Source of the DNA: Pseudomonadota bacterium
Lineage (GTDB): Bacteria > Oederibacteriota > Muellerivitia > Muellerivitales > Muellerivitaceae
Reading direction: 5' to 3'
Assembly (NCBI GenBank): GCA_021324075.1
Contig: JAJPJW010000049.1
Span: 1-45,774, forward strand
Length of the DNA: 45,774 nucleotides
A program made the translations under genes and the position numbers. Shown here piece after piece: positions 26,092-45,716 of the stretch; positions within the stretch are counted from its first letter, which is position 1; each line of letters opens with the position of its first letter. Under the pieces are notes generated by a model, which did not search any database, was not told where the DNA came from, and was given only the letters and a program-made list of their open reading frames with translations.

Positions 26092-26210
26092 CTCTTATCG
26101 CGAGTGGCGGAGGGACAGGCCCTTTGATGCCACGGCAACCGGACCCGAAAGGGTCGCCAGGTGCCAAATCCTGCTCCGGAAGAAAACAACGATCCGGGGA
26201 AAGATGAGAG
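26092..26210 (+). ncRNA. SAM-I riboswitch (S-box)
   Basis: The S-box core is clear: P1 5' strand CTCTTATC (26092-26099), then AGTGGCGGAGGGAC, GGCCCTTTGATGCCACGGCA, the P3 hairpin GACCCGAAAGGGTC, GCCAGGTGCCAAATCCTGC, a variable P4 hairpin, and GAAAGATGAGAG-type closure with P1 3' strand GATGAGAG (26203-26210). GAGATGGAA (26208-26216) is exactly complementary to TTCCATCTC (26234-26242) in the terminator's 5' arm, giving an antiterminator. Known S-box logic predicts that SAM binding stabilises P1, frees the terminator and turns the downstream gene off. Confidence 0.96.
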
Positions 26211-38802: not shown

Positions 38803-39501
38803 GTGAGGAAAAAAATTTTGGTGGTCGGGGTCGGAGGCCTGGGATGTCCGGTTTCCCTGGTTTTGGCCGAGGCGGGTGTGGAAACCTTGGGTCTCATGGA
38901 TCCGGATAAGGTAGAACTCTCCAACCTGCACCGGCAGGTCCTTTATTCCGAGGCCGACCTGGGGCGCCCCAAGGTTGAGGCCGCGTCGGATTACCTTAAA
39001 AAACACCACCCGAAGGTCAAGACAAACCTGGTTCCCAATGCTTTTGCGCCCCAAAACGCCGAAAAAATCTTTTCCCAATATGACCTCGTCATCGACGGCT
39101 TGGACCGACTGGAAAAGAAATTCATCCTCAACGACTGGTGCGTAAAACTGGGAATACCTTACGTACATGCGGGCGTGGTCAAGTTTGAAGGGCAGGTTTT
39201 ACCGGTCCTGCCGGGGAAAACCGCCTGCCTGAGGTGCCTGATCCCTAAAATTCCGCCTCCCTTCGCCATGCCTACCTGCCAGGAGGCCGGGGTCTTGGGT
39301 TCTTTTTCCCAGGCCATCGGTTATTTCCAAGCCCATGAGGCCTTGAGGCTTGCGGAAGGCCGGGGGCCCTTCCGGCTTTGGAAAATGGACATCCAAAAGA
39401 AGGAAGCCCGGTCGATCATTCCGGGCCGGAATCCGGATTGCGAGGCTTGTGGACAAGGCAAGGTTGAGAGGGATATGGTTTCGGCCCAATGCGAGGCTTA
39501 A
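38803..39501 (+). CDS. ThiF/MoeB-family E1 sulfur-carrier-activating enzyme
   Basis: 232 residues from GTG 38803. All E1 hallmarks are present: KKILVVGVGGLGCPVSLVLA (ATP loop), GLMDPDKVELSNLHRQVLYS (Asp and NLHRQ), then DGLDRLEKKFILND. A zinc site is formed by Cys142/Cys145 and Cys213/Cys216. The candidate catalytic cysteine is Cys159 (PTCQEAGVLG). These enzymes adenylate the C-terminal glycine of ThiS/MoaD-type carriers. It is the best candidate to activate the carrier at 30964 once its GG is exposed. A ThiF or MoeB role is equally possible. There is no rhodanese domain. Confidence 0.92.
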   Translation: MRKKILVVGVGGLGCPVSLVLAEAGVETLGLMDPDKVELSNLHRQVLYSEADLGRPKVEAASDYLKKHHPKVKTNLVPNAFAPQNAEKIFSQYDLVIDGLDRLEKKFILNDWCVKLGIPYVHAGVVKFEGQVLPVLPGKTACLRCLIPKIPPPFAMPTCQEAGVLGSFSQAIGYFQAHEALRLAEGRGPFRLWKMDIQKKEARSIIPGRNPDCEACGQGKVERDMVSAQCEA

Positions 39502-40373: not shown

Positions 40374-40402
40374 TTGACATCCGGGGATTGTTCCGGTAAA
40401 TT
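40374..40402 (+). promoter_or_regulatory. Sigma70-type promoter of the sulfate-importer operon
   Basis: Perfect TTGACA (40374-40379) and TAAATT (40397-40402) are separated by 17 nt. Initiation near 40409 would put leader element 1 at the very 5' end of the RNA. Confidence 0.72.
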
Positions 40403-40417
40403 TCAACCATTCAACGC

Positions 40418-40474
40418 GGGCTTTAAGTTCCAACTTGCTCCGGCGTTCCGAAAGGTAAACAGGAGCTAAAGCGG
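40418..40474 (+). ncRNA. Riboswitch-like leader element, copy 1
   Basis: Three nested stems: P1 GCTTTA (40420-40425) with TAAAGC (40467-40472), P2 GCTCC with GGAGC, and P3 GTTCC-GAAA-GG..AAC. Between P1 and P2 is the conserved ACTTGC context CCAACTTGC. TAAAGCGG (40467-40474) is also exactly complementary to CCGCTTTA (40508-40515), the 5' arm of the following terminator. P1 and this antiterminator are mutually exclusive. I cannot match it to a known class; sulfur-related ligands (SAM, cysteine, sulfide or OAS) are guesses from the downstream genes. Confidence 0.7.
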
Positions 40475-40502
40475 CAAACGAAGTTTAGAGAAATCCCTAA
40501 AC

Positions 40503-40534
40503 CCAGACCGCTTTAAAGGCGGCCTGGTTTTTTT
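40503..40534 (+). terminator. Intrinsic terminator after leader element 1
   Basis: CCAG/CTGG and CCGC/GCGG arms (40503-40511 and 40519-40527) form the stem, then seven T (40528-40534). Its 5' arm competes with leader element 1. Confidence 0.85.
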
Positions 40535-40552
40535 GTTTTCGGGCATTTTTAA

Positions 40553-40572
40553 GCGTTTTTTGCAAAAAACGC
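40553..40572. repeat. 20-bp perfect palindrome between the leader copies
   Basis: GCGTTTTTTG followed directly by its reverse complement. It may be a protein-binding operator or a structural separator between the two riboswitch-like units. Confidence 0.55.
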
Positions 40573-40577
40573 CGGCG

Positions 40578-40643
40578 AGGCTTTAACTACCAACTTGCCC
40601 CGGCCGTGCACCTGAAAGGGATGCAAACAGGGCGCTAAAGCGG
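40578..40643 (+). ncRNA. Riboswitch-like leader element, copy 2
   Basis: Same design as copy 1: GCTTTA (40580-40585) with TAAAGC (40636-40641), an inner GCCC/GGGC stem and an apical hairpin with GAAAGG. The blocks CTTTAA, CCAACTTGC, CCGGC, GAAAGG, AAACAGG and GCTAAAGCGG are shared. The apical stem differs in sequence and length but keeps pairing (compensatory change). A second terminator follows. Confidence 0.7.
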
Positions 40644-40666
40644 AGTTGAGATTATTGAACTTCATA

Positions 40667-40703
40667 ATCCCGGCCCGCGGTCAGCGGGGTCCGGGATTTT
40701 TTG
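40667..40703 (+). terminator. Intrinsic terminator after leader element 2
   Basis: ATCCCGG/CCGGGAT outer stem (40667-40673 and 40691-40697) with CCCGC/GCGGG inside, then a T-run to 40702. GATTAT (40650-40655) can pair with ATAATC (40664-40669) and so compete with its base. Confidence 0.85.
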
Positions 40704-40739: not shown

Positions 40740-41744
40740 ATGCAAAAAGCATATCTTTATTCTGCGGCGTTGTTGGTGGTGTTGGGTAGTGCAGCCTTGG
40801 CTTCGGCCCAGGTGACCCTTTTAAACGTGTCTTATGACCCGACGAGGGAGCTTTATGAAGACTACGACAAGGTCTTCGCCGACCATTGGAAGAAGGAAAA
40901 GGGTCAGGACGTCACCATCAACTTGTCCAACGGCGGTTCGGGCAAGCAGGCCCGTGCCATCATTGACGGCCTGGAGGCCGACGTTGCCACCTTGGGACTA
41001 GCCGGGGATATCGACGCCATCGCCTCTAAGGCCAAGCTGCTCCCGGGAAATTGGCAGTCGCGGCTGCCACACAACAGCGCGCCTTACACTTCGGCCATTG
41101 TGCTCCTGGTGCGCGCGGGAAATCCTAAACACATCAAGGATTGGGAGGACCTGGCGCGGCCGGATGTCTCGGTCATTACCGCCAACCCCAAGACTTCCGG
41201 TGGAGCCCGGTGGAATTTCCTGGCGGCCTGGGGTTATGCGCTGAAGAAATACGGCAGTGAGGAAAAGGCCCGCGAGTTCGTGGGCAAGCTTTATAAGAAT
41301 GTGGCTGTCCTGGATTCGGGCGCCCGCGGTTCCACCACGACCTTCGTGGAACGGGGCATCGGGGACGTGCTCATCGCCTGGGAAAATGAGGCTTTCCTGG
41401 CCGTGAAGGAATTGGGCAAGGGTAAGTTCGAGATCGTGGTTCCTTCGGCCAGCATCCTCGCGGAACCGACGGTGGCCTGGGTCGACGATAACACCCAAAA
41501 ACACGGTACCACCGAGGTGGCCAAGGCTTATTTGGAATACCTCTACTCCAAGGAAGGGCAGGAAGCCGTCGCCCGGAATTACTACCGGCCCCAGGACCCG
41601 AAGGTGGCAGCGAAATACGCCAAGCAGTTTCCGAAGATCAAGCTCTTCACCATCGACAAGGTTTTCGGGGGCTGGAAAAAGGCCCAACCGGCCTTTTTCG
41701 GCGACGGCGGTGTTTTTGACCAGATTTACCAACCGGGGAAGTAA
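40740..41744 (+). CDS. sbp: Sulfate-binding protein of the sulfate ABC importer
   Basis: 334 residues from ATG 40740 (AAGGGG 9 nt upstream). A signal peptide ([20 protein letters not shown]) is followed by the mature sulfate-binding protein. Family motifs: [79 protein letters not shown] and [20 protein letters not shown]. It captures sulfate (or thiosulfate) in the periplasm for CysTWA. It is the first gene after the double leader. Confidence 0.96.
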
Positions 41745-41766: not shown

Positions 41767-42600
41767 ATGGGAATGAAATTCAAATCCACGGGCATATTGC
41801 CGGGTTTCGGGCTGACCATGGGCTTCACCCTGGCCTATTTGAGCCTGATCGTCCTGATCCCCTTGGCGGCCTTGATCCTGAAATCCACCACGCTCACCTG
41901 GGCCCAGTTCGTCCAGGAAGTCACCAGCCCCCGGGTGATGGCGTCCTACAAGCTGACCTTCGGGGCTTCCCTGGTCGGTGCGTTAATCAATTCGGTTTTC
42001 GGAGTCATCGTGGCCTGGGTGCTGGTCCGCTATGAATTTCCCGGCAAGAAATTGGTGGATGCCATGGTGGACCTGCCCTTCGCGCTGCCCACGGCGGTGG
42101 CGGGCATCACCTTGACCGCCCTCTACGCGCCCACAGGATGGATCGGAAGGCTGCTGGAGCCCCTTGGAATCCCCGTGGCTTATACGCCCCTGGGGGTTGT
42201 GGTGGCCCTGACCTTCATTGGCCTGCCTTTCGTGGTGAGGACCCTCCAACCCGTCCTGGAATCCCTGGACCCGGAAATGGAGAAGGCGGCGGTGAGCCTG
42301 GGCGCCGGCCGCTGGTACACGGTCACGCGGGTCATCCTGCCCACCCTGGCCCCGGCCTGGATCACCGGGTCTTCCCTGGCTTTTGCCCGGGCGGTGGGGG
42401 AGTACGGCTCGGTGGTTTTTATCGCCGGCAATATGCCCATGAAAACCGAAATCACCCCCCTCCTCATCATCACCAAACTGGAGCAATACGATTACGCGGG
42501 AGCCACCTCCATCGGCGTGGTCATGCTGGTGATTTCCTTTACGCTGCTTTTGGCCATCAATTGGCTGCAATCCCGGACCGGCGTCCACCGGATCCATTGA
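41767..42600 (+). CDS. cysT: Sulfate ABC transporter permease CysT
   Basis: 277 residues with six membrane helices. The family pattern is clear: FGLTMGFTLAYLSLIVLIPL, VAWVLVRYEFPGKKLVDAMV, DLPFALPTAVAGITLTALYA, and the EAA loop EKAAVSLGAGRWYTVTRVIL, then FARAVGEYGSVVFIAGNMPM. ATG 41767 is used, although M at 41773 is close. It pairs with CysW. Confidence 0.95.
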   Translation: MGMKFKSTGILPGFGLTMGFTLAYLSLIVLIPLAALILKSTTLTWAQFVQEVTSPRVMASYKLTFGASLVGALINSVFGVIVAWVLVRYEFPGKKLVDAMVDLPFALPTAVAGITLTALYAPTGWIGRLLEPLGIPVAYTPLGVVVALTFIGLPFVVRTLQPVLESLDPEMEKAAVSLGAGRWYTVTRVILPTLAPAWITGSSLAFARAVGEYGSVVFIAGNMPMKTEITPLLIITKLEQYDYAGATSIGVVMLVISFTLLLAINWLQSRTGVHRIH

Positions 42601-42603
42601 GGA

Positions 42604-43512
42604 ATGGAAATGGCCCCAAGGGTTGACGAGGTGAAAACCTATCCTGTGCTGGACCCGGCCAGGGCCCTCACCGAGCCCCGGTGGGTGCGTTGGGTCCTGA
42701 TCGCGGTGGCGCTGTCTTTCATCGCCTTGTTCCTGCTGGTGCCCCTGGCCCAAGTCTTTGCCTCCGCCTTGGACAAGGGCATGGGTTATTATTTCAACGC
42801 CGTCCGGGAACCGGCGGCCCTGTCGGCCGTCAAACTGACCCTTGTTGCGGCTTTCTTTTCGGTGGTTTTTAATTCAGCTTTCGGGCTGGCTTCGGCCTGG
42901 GCCATCACCAAGTTCCGCTTTCCGGGAAAGAGCCTCCTGATCACCCTCATCGACCTTCCTTTCACCGTTTCGCCGGTGGTTTCGGGATTGATCTACGTTT
43001 TGCTCTTCGGCCTCCAGGGACTGTTGGGGCCCTGGCTGAAGGCCCATAACCTTCATATCATCTTCGCCCTTCCGGGAATCGTCCTGGCTACGGTCTTCGT
43101 GACCTTCCCCTTCATTTCCCGGGAACTGATTCCCCTCATGCAGGAACAAGGTTCGGAAGAAGAGGAGGCGGCCATGGTCCTGGGCGCCGGCGGCCGGCAG
43201 ATCTTCTGGAAAGTGACCCTGCCCAACATCCAGTGGGGGCTTCTTTACGGCGTGATCCTTTGCAACGCCCGCGCCATGGGGGAATTCGGGGCTGTTTCGG
43301 TGGTTTCGGGCCACATCCGCGGCTTGACCAACACCCTGCCACTGCATGTGGAAATCCTCTATAACGAATATGACTTCACCGCGGCCTTTGCCGTGGCGTC
43401 GCTTCTGACTTTCCTCGCCGTCTTGACGCTGATCGCAAAAACTCTTGTCGGATTGAAATACGAAAAGTCGCGCCAAACGCCTGCGGCGCAGGCTGAAAGT
43501 GGAATCGCATGA
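42604..43512 (+). CDS. cysW: Sulfate ABC transporter permease CysW
   Basis: 302 residues with six membrane helices. Motifs: VPLAQVFASALDKGMGYYFN, WAITKFRFPGKSLLITLIDL, PFTVSPVVSGLIYVLLFGLQ, the EAA loop EEEAAMVLGAGGRQIFWKVT, and NARAMGEFGAVSVVSGHIRG. The C-terminal end overlaps cysA by 4 nt, so the two are coupled. Confidence 0.95.
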   Translation: MEMAPRVDEVKTYPVLDPARALTEPRWVRWVLIAVALSFIALFLLVPLAQVFASALDKGMGYYFNAVREPAALSAVKLTLVAAFFSVVFNSAFGLASAWAITKFRFPGKSLLITLIDLPFTVSPVVSGLIYVLLFGLQGLLGPWLKAHNLHIIFALPGIVLATVFVTFPFISRELIPLMQEQGSEEEEAAMVLGAGGRQIFWKVTLPNIQWGLLYGVILCNARAMGEFGAVSVVSGHIRGLTNTLPLHVEILYNEYDFTAAFAVASLLTFLAVLTLIAKTLVGLKYEKSRQTPAAQAESGIA

Positions 43513-44561
43513 GCATCGAAGTTCGCGGCCTCTGCAAACATTACAACGGCTTCAAGGCCGTCCATAACGTGAGCGCGAAACTGGAGACAGGGTCCCTGAC
43601 CGCCCTGTTGGGCCCTTCGGGCTCGGGAAAGAGCACCCTGCTCCGCATGATCGCGGGGCTGGAGGTACCCGATTCGGGGGAGATCCACCTGACCGGCCGG
43701 GAAGCCACCTTCGCCTCGGCCAAGGAACGCAACGTGGGCTTCGTCTTCCAGCATTACGCCCTCTTCAAGCACATGACGGTTTTCGAGAACATCGCCTTCG
43801 GCCTCAGGGTGCGCAAACAGGGCGAGAGGGGGATCCAGGACCGGGTCTTCGAACTCCTGAAGCTCATCCAACTGACCGGCTACGAGAAGCGCTACCCCTC
43901 CCAGCTCTCCGGCGGGCAGCGCCAGAGGGTGGCGGTGGCCCGGGCCCTGGCCCCCCGGCCTGAAGTGCTGCTCCTGGACGAACCCTTCGGCGCCCTGGAT
44001 GCGAAGGTGCGGGAGGAACTGCGGGAATGGATCCTCCGGCTGCATGAGGAAACCAACATGACCACCCTTTTCGTCACCCACGACCAACAGGAGGCCATGG
44101 AAGTGGCGGGCCGCATCCTCATCATGAACCACGGTGAGATCGAGCAGGACGGCACGCCCATCGAGATCTTCGACCAACCCGCCACCCATTTCATCGCCCA
44201 ATTCGTGGGGGAATCGAACTTCATCGACACCGAGGTTTCGGAAAAAGGCCTGGCGGTTTGGGGCCCTTTCCGGTTTTCGGTGGCTCCCAGCCTGCCGGTG
44301 GGGAAGAAGATCCGCATTTATTTCCGGCCCAATGACGTCTATATGACCGCCCAATTCGAGACCCTGCAGGTGCGGGCCAGGATCGCCAAGACCCGGTTCA
44401 AGGGGACCACGATCGAGTACAAACTGGATATAGGAGAAGATAAATATATTTCCGCCCAGATCCCCAAGGGCGTGGCCCTGGCCAGCGGTTTCAAGGAAGG
44501 GGGGGAAGTCTATGCCGCCATCACGGCCTTCCACGTGTTTCCGATCGACGCCGAGGGTTAA
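43509..44561 (+). CDS. cysA: Sulfate ABC transporter ATPase CysA
   Basis: 350 residues. Walker A is GPSGSGKSTLLRMIAGLEVP. The Q-loop is in GFVFQHYALFKHM, the signature is QLSGGQRQRVAVARALA, Walker B is VLLLDEPFGALD and the H-loop is VTHDQQEAME. The TOBE-like C-terminal domain (residues ~235-345) matches the CysA form. It powers sulfate import by CysTW-Sbp. A terminator follows at 44600. Confidence 0.96.
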   Translation: MSIEVRGLCKHYNGFKAVHNVSAKLETGSLTALLGPSGSGKSTLLRMIAGLEVPDSGEIHLTGREATFASAKERNVGFVFQHYALFKHMTVFENIAFGLRVRKQGERGIQDRVFELLKLIQLTGYEKRYPSQLSGGQRQRVAVARALAPRPEVLLLDEPFGALDAKVREELREWILRLHEETNMTTLFVTHDQQEAMEVAGRILIMNHGEIEQDGTPIEIFDQPATHFIAQFVGESNFIDTEVSEKGLAVWGPFRFSVAPSLPVGKKIRIYFRPNDVYMTAQFETLQVRARIAKTRFKGTTIEYKLDIGEDKYISAQIPKGVALASGFKEGGEVYAAITAFHVFPIDAEG

Positions 44562-44792: not shown

Positions 44793-45716
44793 ATGCCGAT
44801 AACCACCGATTCCAAAACCATTTCCCACTTAAAACAACTGGAAGCGGAGAGCATCCACATCATCCGCGAAGTGGCGGCGGAGTTCAAAAACCCCGTCATG
44901 CTTTATTCGGTGGGGAAGGACTCCAGTTGCATGGTGCGCCTGGCCCAGAAGGCCTTCCACCCCGGAAAGATCCCCTTTCCCCTGATGCACGTGGACACGG
45001 GCTATAAATTCCCCGAGATGTACGAGTTCCGAGACAAGTTCATCGCCGATATCGGGGCGAAACTCTTCGTCGAGCGCAATGAAAAGGCCATCGCCGAGGG
45101 CTCCAGCCCCTTCAAATACGGGGTCCAGAAGTGCTGCGGCCTCTTGAAGACCCAGGGCCTGTTGGACGGACTTGCCAAGCACGGGTTTGACGCGGCTTTC
45201 GGCGGCGCCCGCCGGGAAGAGGAGAAGTCCCGGGCCAAGGAGCGGGTTTATTCCTTCCGGGATTCCTTCGGCCAATGGGACCCGAAGAACCAGCGGCCCG
45301 AGCTGTGGGACCTTTATAACTCTAAAATCAACGAAGGCGAGTCCATCCGGGTGTTCCCCCTGTCCAACTGGACCGAACTGGACATCTGGCTCTATATCGA
45401 AATGGAAAAAATCCCGGTGGTGCCCATCTACTTCACCCATACGCGCAAGATCATCAAGCGCAACAACCTGCTGATCCCCTGGGTATCCCACATCCCCATC
45501 CTGCCCGGTGACGAAGTGAAGGAGATGCGGGTCCGGTTCCGGTCCCTGGGCTGCATGTCCTGTACGGGCGCGGTGGAGAATAAAGAGGAAGTCCATGACC
45601 TGCGGGGCATCATCGAGGACCTCATCCAGACACGGAAGAGCGAGCGGGAAAACCGCATCATCGACCACGGGTCCGACAGCTCCATGGAACAGAAGAAAAA
45701 GGAAGGCTACTTTTGA
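44793..45716 (+). CDS. cysD: Sulfate adenylyltransferase subunit 2
   Basis: 307 residues. With CysN it forms ATP sulfurylase, which makes APS from sulfate and ATP. Motifs: [20 protein letters not shown], then [20 protein letters not shown] (PP-loop SVGKDSS), [54 protein letters not shown], and [15 protein letters not shown]. The gene overlaps cysN by 4 nt. Its promoter is not clear. Confidence 0.97.

Follow-up and report, generated by a model that had tools for sequence, protein, structure and literature searches.

A candidate SAM-II/SAM-V-like riboswitch variant, predicted to act as two OFF switches in series, lies upstream of sulfate importer genes in an uncultured bacterium

SAM-II riboswitches have been reported from Proteobacteria, and those with the long loop from Bacteroidetes and from marine samples (PMC2704228, PMC2864571). 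In the crystal structure of the SAM-V riboswitch, U47 and U8 contact the adenine of the ligand and U9 and U20 its sulfonium, with A48 and A50 as further contacts (PMC6061858). Complete riboswitches for one ligand also occur in tandem, including 44 tandem SAM-II pairs, and such arrangements are predicted to respond in a more digital manner (PMC9481103). The leader described here, found in a window of 45,774 nucleotides (the whole stretch of DNA that was analysed), appears to contain a new SAM-II/SAM-V-like riboswitch variant, in this case as two OFF switches in series.

The locus, from an uncultured bacterium, reads in the 5' to 3' direction promoter, aptamer 1, terminator 1, aptamer 2, terminator 2, sbp-cysTWA, and cysD, with all features on the forward strand. 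The sigma-70-like promoter (TTGACA-17-TAAATT, 40374–40402), identified by consensus match only, agrees with the consensus in 10 of 12 letters (0.2 expected in shuffled sequences). The two aptamer copies (40413–40474 and 40573–40643), whose letters were checked, share the blocks CTTTAA, CCAACTTGC, CCGGC, AAACAGG, and GCTAAAGCGG, and are followed by intrinsic terminators with T tails at 40503–40535 and 40666–40702, respectively. Downstream are genes for a sulfate ABC transporter substrate-binding protein (sbp, 40740–41744; NCBIfam NF008022, 509.6 bits), the sulfate permeases cysT (41767–42600; TIGR02139, 412.6 bits) and cysW (42604–43512; TIGR02140, 390.7 bits), a cysA-type sulfate transport ATPase (43509–44561; TIGR00968, 356.8 bits, above the cut-off), and the small subunit of sulfate adenylyltransferase (cysD, 44793–45716; TIGR02039, 434.1 bits). 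The preliminary description of this DNA had proposed the promoter, two copies of one element with shared blocks, a terminator for each copy, and sbp-cysTWA as the target; the promoter, the copies, and the terminators all hold at these coordinates, and the NCBIfam and TIGR matches confirm the gene identities and add cysD. Two genes upstream of the leader lies a MoeB/ThiF-type adenylyltransferase (38803–39501).

A further tandem pair lies on another contig of this genome, upstream of a gene for a secreted or outer-membrane protein. A model derived from all four copies (R1) recovers the element from each of the eight genomes of the window's bacterial family, which places the leader far beyond chance, and from others of the phylum; the tandem arrangement is the rule in the family. 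The conserved RNA that had been postulated from the window is borne out. Weak R1 matches in nine genomes (G008, G012, G017–G020, G022, G040, and G041) were rejected on inspection. Scanning 84,980 species with a DNA pattern returned 16 stretches, from FCPU426, Elusimicrobia, Acidobacteria, Coatesbacteria, and Desantisbacteria. All pattern matches that were read carry the upstream NUUU(A/G) strand, which the pattern did not require, and a terminator follows nearly all of them. At E ≤ 0.01, a second model (R2) gave matches in Elusimicrobia (31 of 295 genomes), Acidobacteria (2 of 297), and the window's own phylum (13 of 45), the weakest of them inspected in part; copy 2 of the window scores 79.5 bits. 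We count 58 convincing members, from FCPU426 and Elusimicrobia plus single genomes of Acidobacteria, Coatesbacteria, and Desantisbacteria. Comparison of these members shows that the RNA is conserved, together with both of its helices (P1 and P2), its terminators, and the kind of genes that follow it. No earlier description of the variant in these phyla was found in Rfam 15 and in open-access papers. The alignment used below (A4) has 60 rows; its two weak rows L071:3167 and L115:1384 are not members, yet one or both enter some of the counts.

The fold that the comparison supports is an H-type pseudoknot of P1 and P2, since P1 encloses only the 5' strand of P2. P2 pairs UUGNNC with GNN'CUAA and covaries across members. 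Double compensatory changes occur in 19 cells, a number reached by 0 of 500 shuffles and far lower in slid versions of the pairing, in an alignment fitted to a model that holds part of P2 and with P2 columns that adjoin invariant letters. The pair equivalent to 22:45 of SAM-V is C-G in 48 members, G-C in eight, and U-A in one; the pair 23:44, often unpaired, is U-A in nine and A-U in one, and where U23 and a letter at 44 are both present, the latter is A in 9/9. P1 joins the letters that immediately precede the third strand to those directly after the 5' strand of P2. It reads AACGC/GCGTT and CGGC/GCCG in the window, and AGGC/GCCT, CGGT/ACCG, TTAT/ATAA, or GAAAGGC/GCCTTTC in other members. Helices formed with their own partners average 3.63 pairs, versus 3.11 ± 0.12 with swapped partners, and 0 of 2000 swaps did as well. 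Members usually have a P3 hairpin, which varies in sequence and is absent in L062, L063, L065, and L078. In members upstream of peroxiredoxin genes and in L065, long insertions separate the third strand from P2; within the window's family, a long-loop second form precedes a peroxiredoxin gene in each of four genomes (L053:1269–1340, L057:8185–8279, L056:6407–6501, and L054:9970–10060).

In copy 1, where covariation in relatives backs both helices, P1 is at 40413–40417/40443–40447, the third strand UUU at 40422–40424, P2 at 40435–40440/40463–40469, and a short P3 at 40448–40455; U40467, which corresponds to U47 of SAM-V, is bulged, and A40470 corresponds to A50. Copy 2 has P1 at 40573–40576/40603–40606, the third strand at 40582–40584, P2 at 40595–40600/40632–40638 with one C·C mismatch and with U40636 and A40639 as the equivalents of U47 and A50, and a P3 hairpin at 40607–40625. 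A possible P2a consists of CC 40430–40431/GG 40473–40474 in copy 1 and CC 40590–40591/GG 40642–40643 in copy 2.

A fold and binding site shared with SAM-II and SAM-V are supported. The equivalents of U9, U20, U47, A48, and A50 of SAM-V are constant in 59/59 rows of A4, and that of U8 in 57/59; the ligand-binding letters of SAM-II (the UUU of the third strand, UUGC, and GCUAAA) are likewise conserved in members. The covariation of P1 and P2 and these SAM contacts give substance to the link to SAM-II/SAM-V pseudoknots that had been raised tentatively and without proof. As in SAM-II, the elements follow in the order P1, third strand, P2, P1', P2', the core GAUUU..CUUGC..GCUAAAG.GG is aligned by cmscan, some members have long-loop inserts between UUUAA and CAACUUGC, and transcription terminators, tandem copies, and sulfur and methionine genes accompany the element. 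However, the variant mostly carries P3 (absent in a few members), which SAM-II lacks, and its hosts are FCPU426, Elusimicrobia, and others. With SAM-V, compared with the text of PMC6061858, the variant shares a P1 of about 4 bp and a P3 hairpin between P1' and P2', and it also has an A-rich linker upstream of P2', a bulged U47 in P2, and the same ligand contacts. One member (L092, upstream of metY), which has GCUAAAUAGGAG directly before the AUG and no terminator, looks translational and resembles SAM-V in this too, whereas masking of the Shine-Dalgarno sequence by P2a is not the variant's rule, and almost all members use transcription termination. Also unlike SAM-V, which has A18, most members have C at position 18, and the SAM-V model reaches its threshold in none of the related loci. 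The leader resembles the tandem SAM-II/SAM-V and SAM-II arrays of PMC9481103 in that two complete riboswitches for a common ligand follow one another, but in the leader each copy is of the new variant.

Neither the window nor any of 37 related loci has a member that reaches an Rfam 15 gathering cut-off, and the variant does not belong formally to RF00521, RF01726, or RF01826 as these are defined. An Rfam search with the window's two copies gave chance matches only, with no SAM-II or SAM-V match at E < 10. SAM-II and SAM-V model searches of the window's genome found no match, and neither did the positive control, so that the SAM-V negative carries no weight by itself. For the P3-less L063, just two of 4227 Rfam families matched at E < 10, namely SAM_alpha (RF00521) and SAM-II (RF01726); the alignments to SAM_alpha and to the SAM-II long-loop form are both in register over the core, and the best SAM-II scores were 13.8 and 14.8 bits against gathering thresholds of 36 and 44 bits. 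L092 likewise aligns to SAM_alpha below the curated threshold. L106, of the metH type, gave chance matches only; the SAM-II signal is therefore present in some members only. The Rfam kinship rests on these sub-threshold matches, which we take as supporting, not decisive. SAM-I (S-box, RF00162) has the same expected ligand as the variant, but an unrelated fold with a four-way junction. Its model matches neither leader copy and, in the window, only a separate site at 26092–26210, a clear SAM-I riboswitch (83.4 bits) with a terminator. The gene behind that site is thrC, a threonine synthase (NF006050), so that SAM control of the threonine branch occurs in the same window as the SAM-II/V-like switches.

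The genes downstream of the members, identified with NCBIfam or Pfam, look like the expected SAM regulon. They include metY-cysK-metX (L077), metY (L073, L092), metX (L087), metH (L106, L099), metK behind a tandem pair (L104), cysT (L102), cysDN (L063), a methionine-aminotransferase-like protein (L116), taurine/SaoA-type transport ATPases (L059, L062), a nitrite/sulfite reductase or CobG-type protein (L061), peroxiredoxin and Porin_O_P proteins near sulfate importers (L053), and DsrE_2 (L064). In translations that were read, metH follows nine further Elusimicrobia members and metY two further ones. The Elusimicrobia loci L098, L105, L109, L113, and L115 have an inverted P2 pair (UUGG/CCUAAA), often upstream of TPR proteins of unknown role. 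Behind the Acidobacteria members lies a small protein of about 90 amino acids that has no Pfam match (L071:2862–3128, L069, and L122); L071 also carries a tRNA-Sec.

The most likely ligand would thus be S-adenosylmethionine, given both the conserved contacts and the downstream genes. Alternatively, the aptamer, or a subset of members, may have kept the SAM-II/SAM-V fold while coming to bind something else, for instance SAH, methionine, or some metabolite of sulfur or polyamine metabolism. Few mutations can be enough for an aptamer to change its ligand, and close variants of SAM-I have moved to spermidine (PMC10853860), position 18 differs from SAM-V, and some members precede genes without an obvious SAM link (peroxiredoxin, TPR proteins, or DUF3034). 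However, this explanation is unlikely, as the SAM-contacting letters are nearly invariant, including U9 and U20, which discriminate SAM from SAH in SAM-V, and as the most frequent neighbours, which include metK and metH, are well-established SAM targets.

Terminators follow 53 of the 58 members, versus 9.6 ± 2.2 in shuffled sequences; most members are therefore transcriptional. An element copy without a terminator (L055:1620–1687, genome G024, 42 bits) lies about 370 bases upstream of a NUDIX-like open frame and is perhaps a remnant or has another expression platform. In copy 1 of the window, UAAAGCGG (40467–40474), comprising the 3' strand of P2 and its extension, is exactly complementary over 8 bp to CCGCUUUA (40508–40515) in the 5' arm of the terminator, a match found in 1 of 5000 shuffles. 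The two would form an antiterminator (40467–40515, fold −12.6 kcal/mol), to which a conserved-looking hairpin GUUUAG/CUAAAC (40483–40488/40497–40502) adds. The exclusive pairing in copy 1 that had been pointed out earlier was thus correctly seen as an exact match, but the strand involved belongs to the 3' side of P2 and not to a nested P1. Copy 2 has a hairpin GATTAT/ATAATC (40650–40669) that extends into the 5' arm of terminator 2 and that, together with GCGG 40640–40643/CCGC 40675–40678, may act as an antiterminator; only 4 bp reach the aptamer, which is weaker than in copy 1. The complementarity is mostly 8–9 bp in counterparts of copy 1. Across the whole family it is not clearly above that of swapped partners (36/300), and we therefore propose antitermination only for copy 1 with its counterparts.

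We infer the ligand, the direction of switching, the antitermination, and the behaviour in series as follows. Each copy would be a SAM aptamer made of P1, a P2 triplex whose third strand is rich in U, and an optional P3 hairpin, and would have its own terminator. Abundant SAM would stabilise P2; in copy 1, UAAAGCGG would then be held in P2 and kept from the 5' arm of the terminator, so that the terminator forms and transcription stops upstream of sbp-cysTWA. When SAM is scarce, UAAAGCGG would pair with the terminator arm and the sulfate importer would be made. Since bound SAM would leave the terminator free, this would be an OFF switch, and two in series may be expected to give a steeper, more digital shut-off. 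The preliminary description had likewise seen a pair of OFF-type switches in series controlling sulfate uptake, and the sulfur compound that it had left unspecified is most likely S-adenosylmethionine. As far as sequence comparison can tell, it is thus very probable that the leader consists of two SAM-sensing SAM-II/SAM-V-type pseudoknot aptamers, each with its own terminator, acting as OFF switches in series before sbp-cysTWA.

Protein-binding leaders and attenuation systems control sulfate and methionine genes elsewhere, and the leader could instead be of this kind (with a leader peptide, a T-box, or a CysB-like operator) and not a riboswitch. This is very unlikely, as no leader peptide was seen, T-box and other Rfam leaders stay below threshold, the spacing to the start codon varies widely, and conservation tracks the ligand-binding pseudoknot. 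Least credible of all is the nested hairpin leader of the preliminary description, a class unrelated to SAM-II with apical stems and P1 = GCTTTA/TAAAGC, for although its six pairs can form in the window's copies and an energy model that cannot draw pseudoknots favours them in copy 1, that P1 does not covary (0.034 versus 0.033 in shuffles, 231/500), only 55% of cells have its two outer pairs, and relatives often have GATTTA facing the near-constant TAAAGC, with A at position 7 opposite a near-constant G in 26 rows. The U and A letters of GCTTTA/TAAAGC would correspond to the third strand and the P2 strand of a major-groove triplex.

Returning to the SAM-II/SAM-V-like pseudoknot, one can speculate that the variant is a third, separate branch of the superfamily, spread across several mostly uncultured phyla, that mixes traits of SAM-II (terminators, long loops, and tandems) with traits of SAM-V (P3 and the occasional translational form); it could mark their common ancestor, and the subsets upstream of peroxiredoxin and TPR genes may sense a ligand other than SAM. 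We offer this scenario tentatively and consider it possible rather than probable. With a core that is short and pseudoknotted, this family, which has at least 58 members, has escaped the Rfam models. SAM-II and SAM-V have hitherto been regarded as mainly proteobacterial and marine, and the superfamily would be widened greatly by a homologous switch in FCPU426, Elusimicrobia, and further deep-branching groups that are mostly uncultured. The variant would readily annotate genes of sulfur and methionine metabolism in those groups, along with some unknown ones, and, because it combines the expression platforms and architectures of SAM-II and SAM-V, it would link the two.
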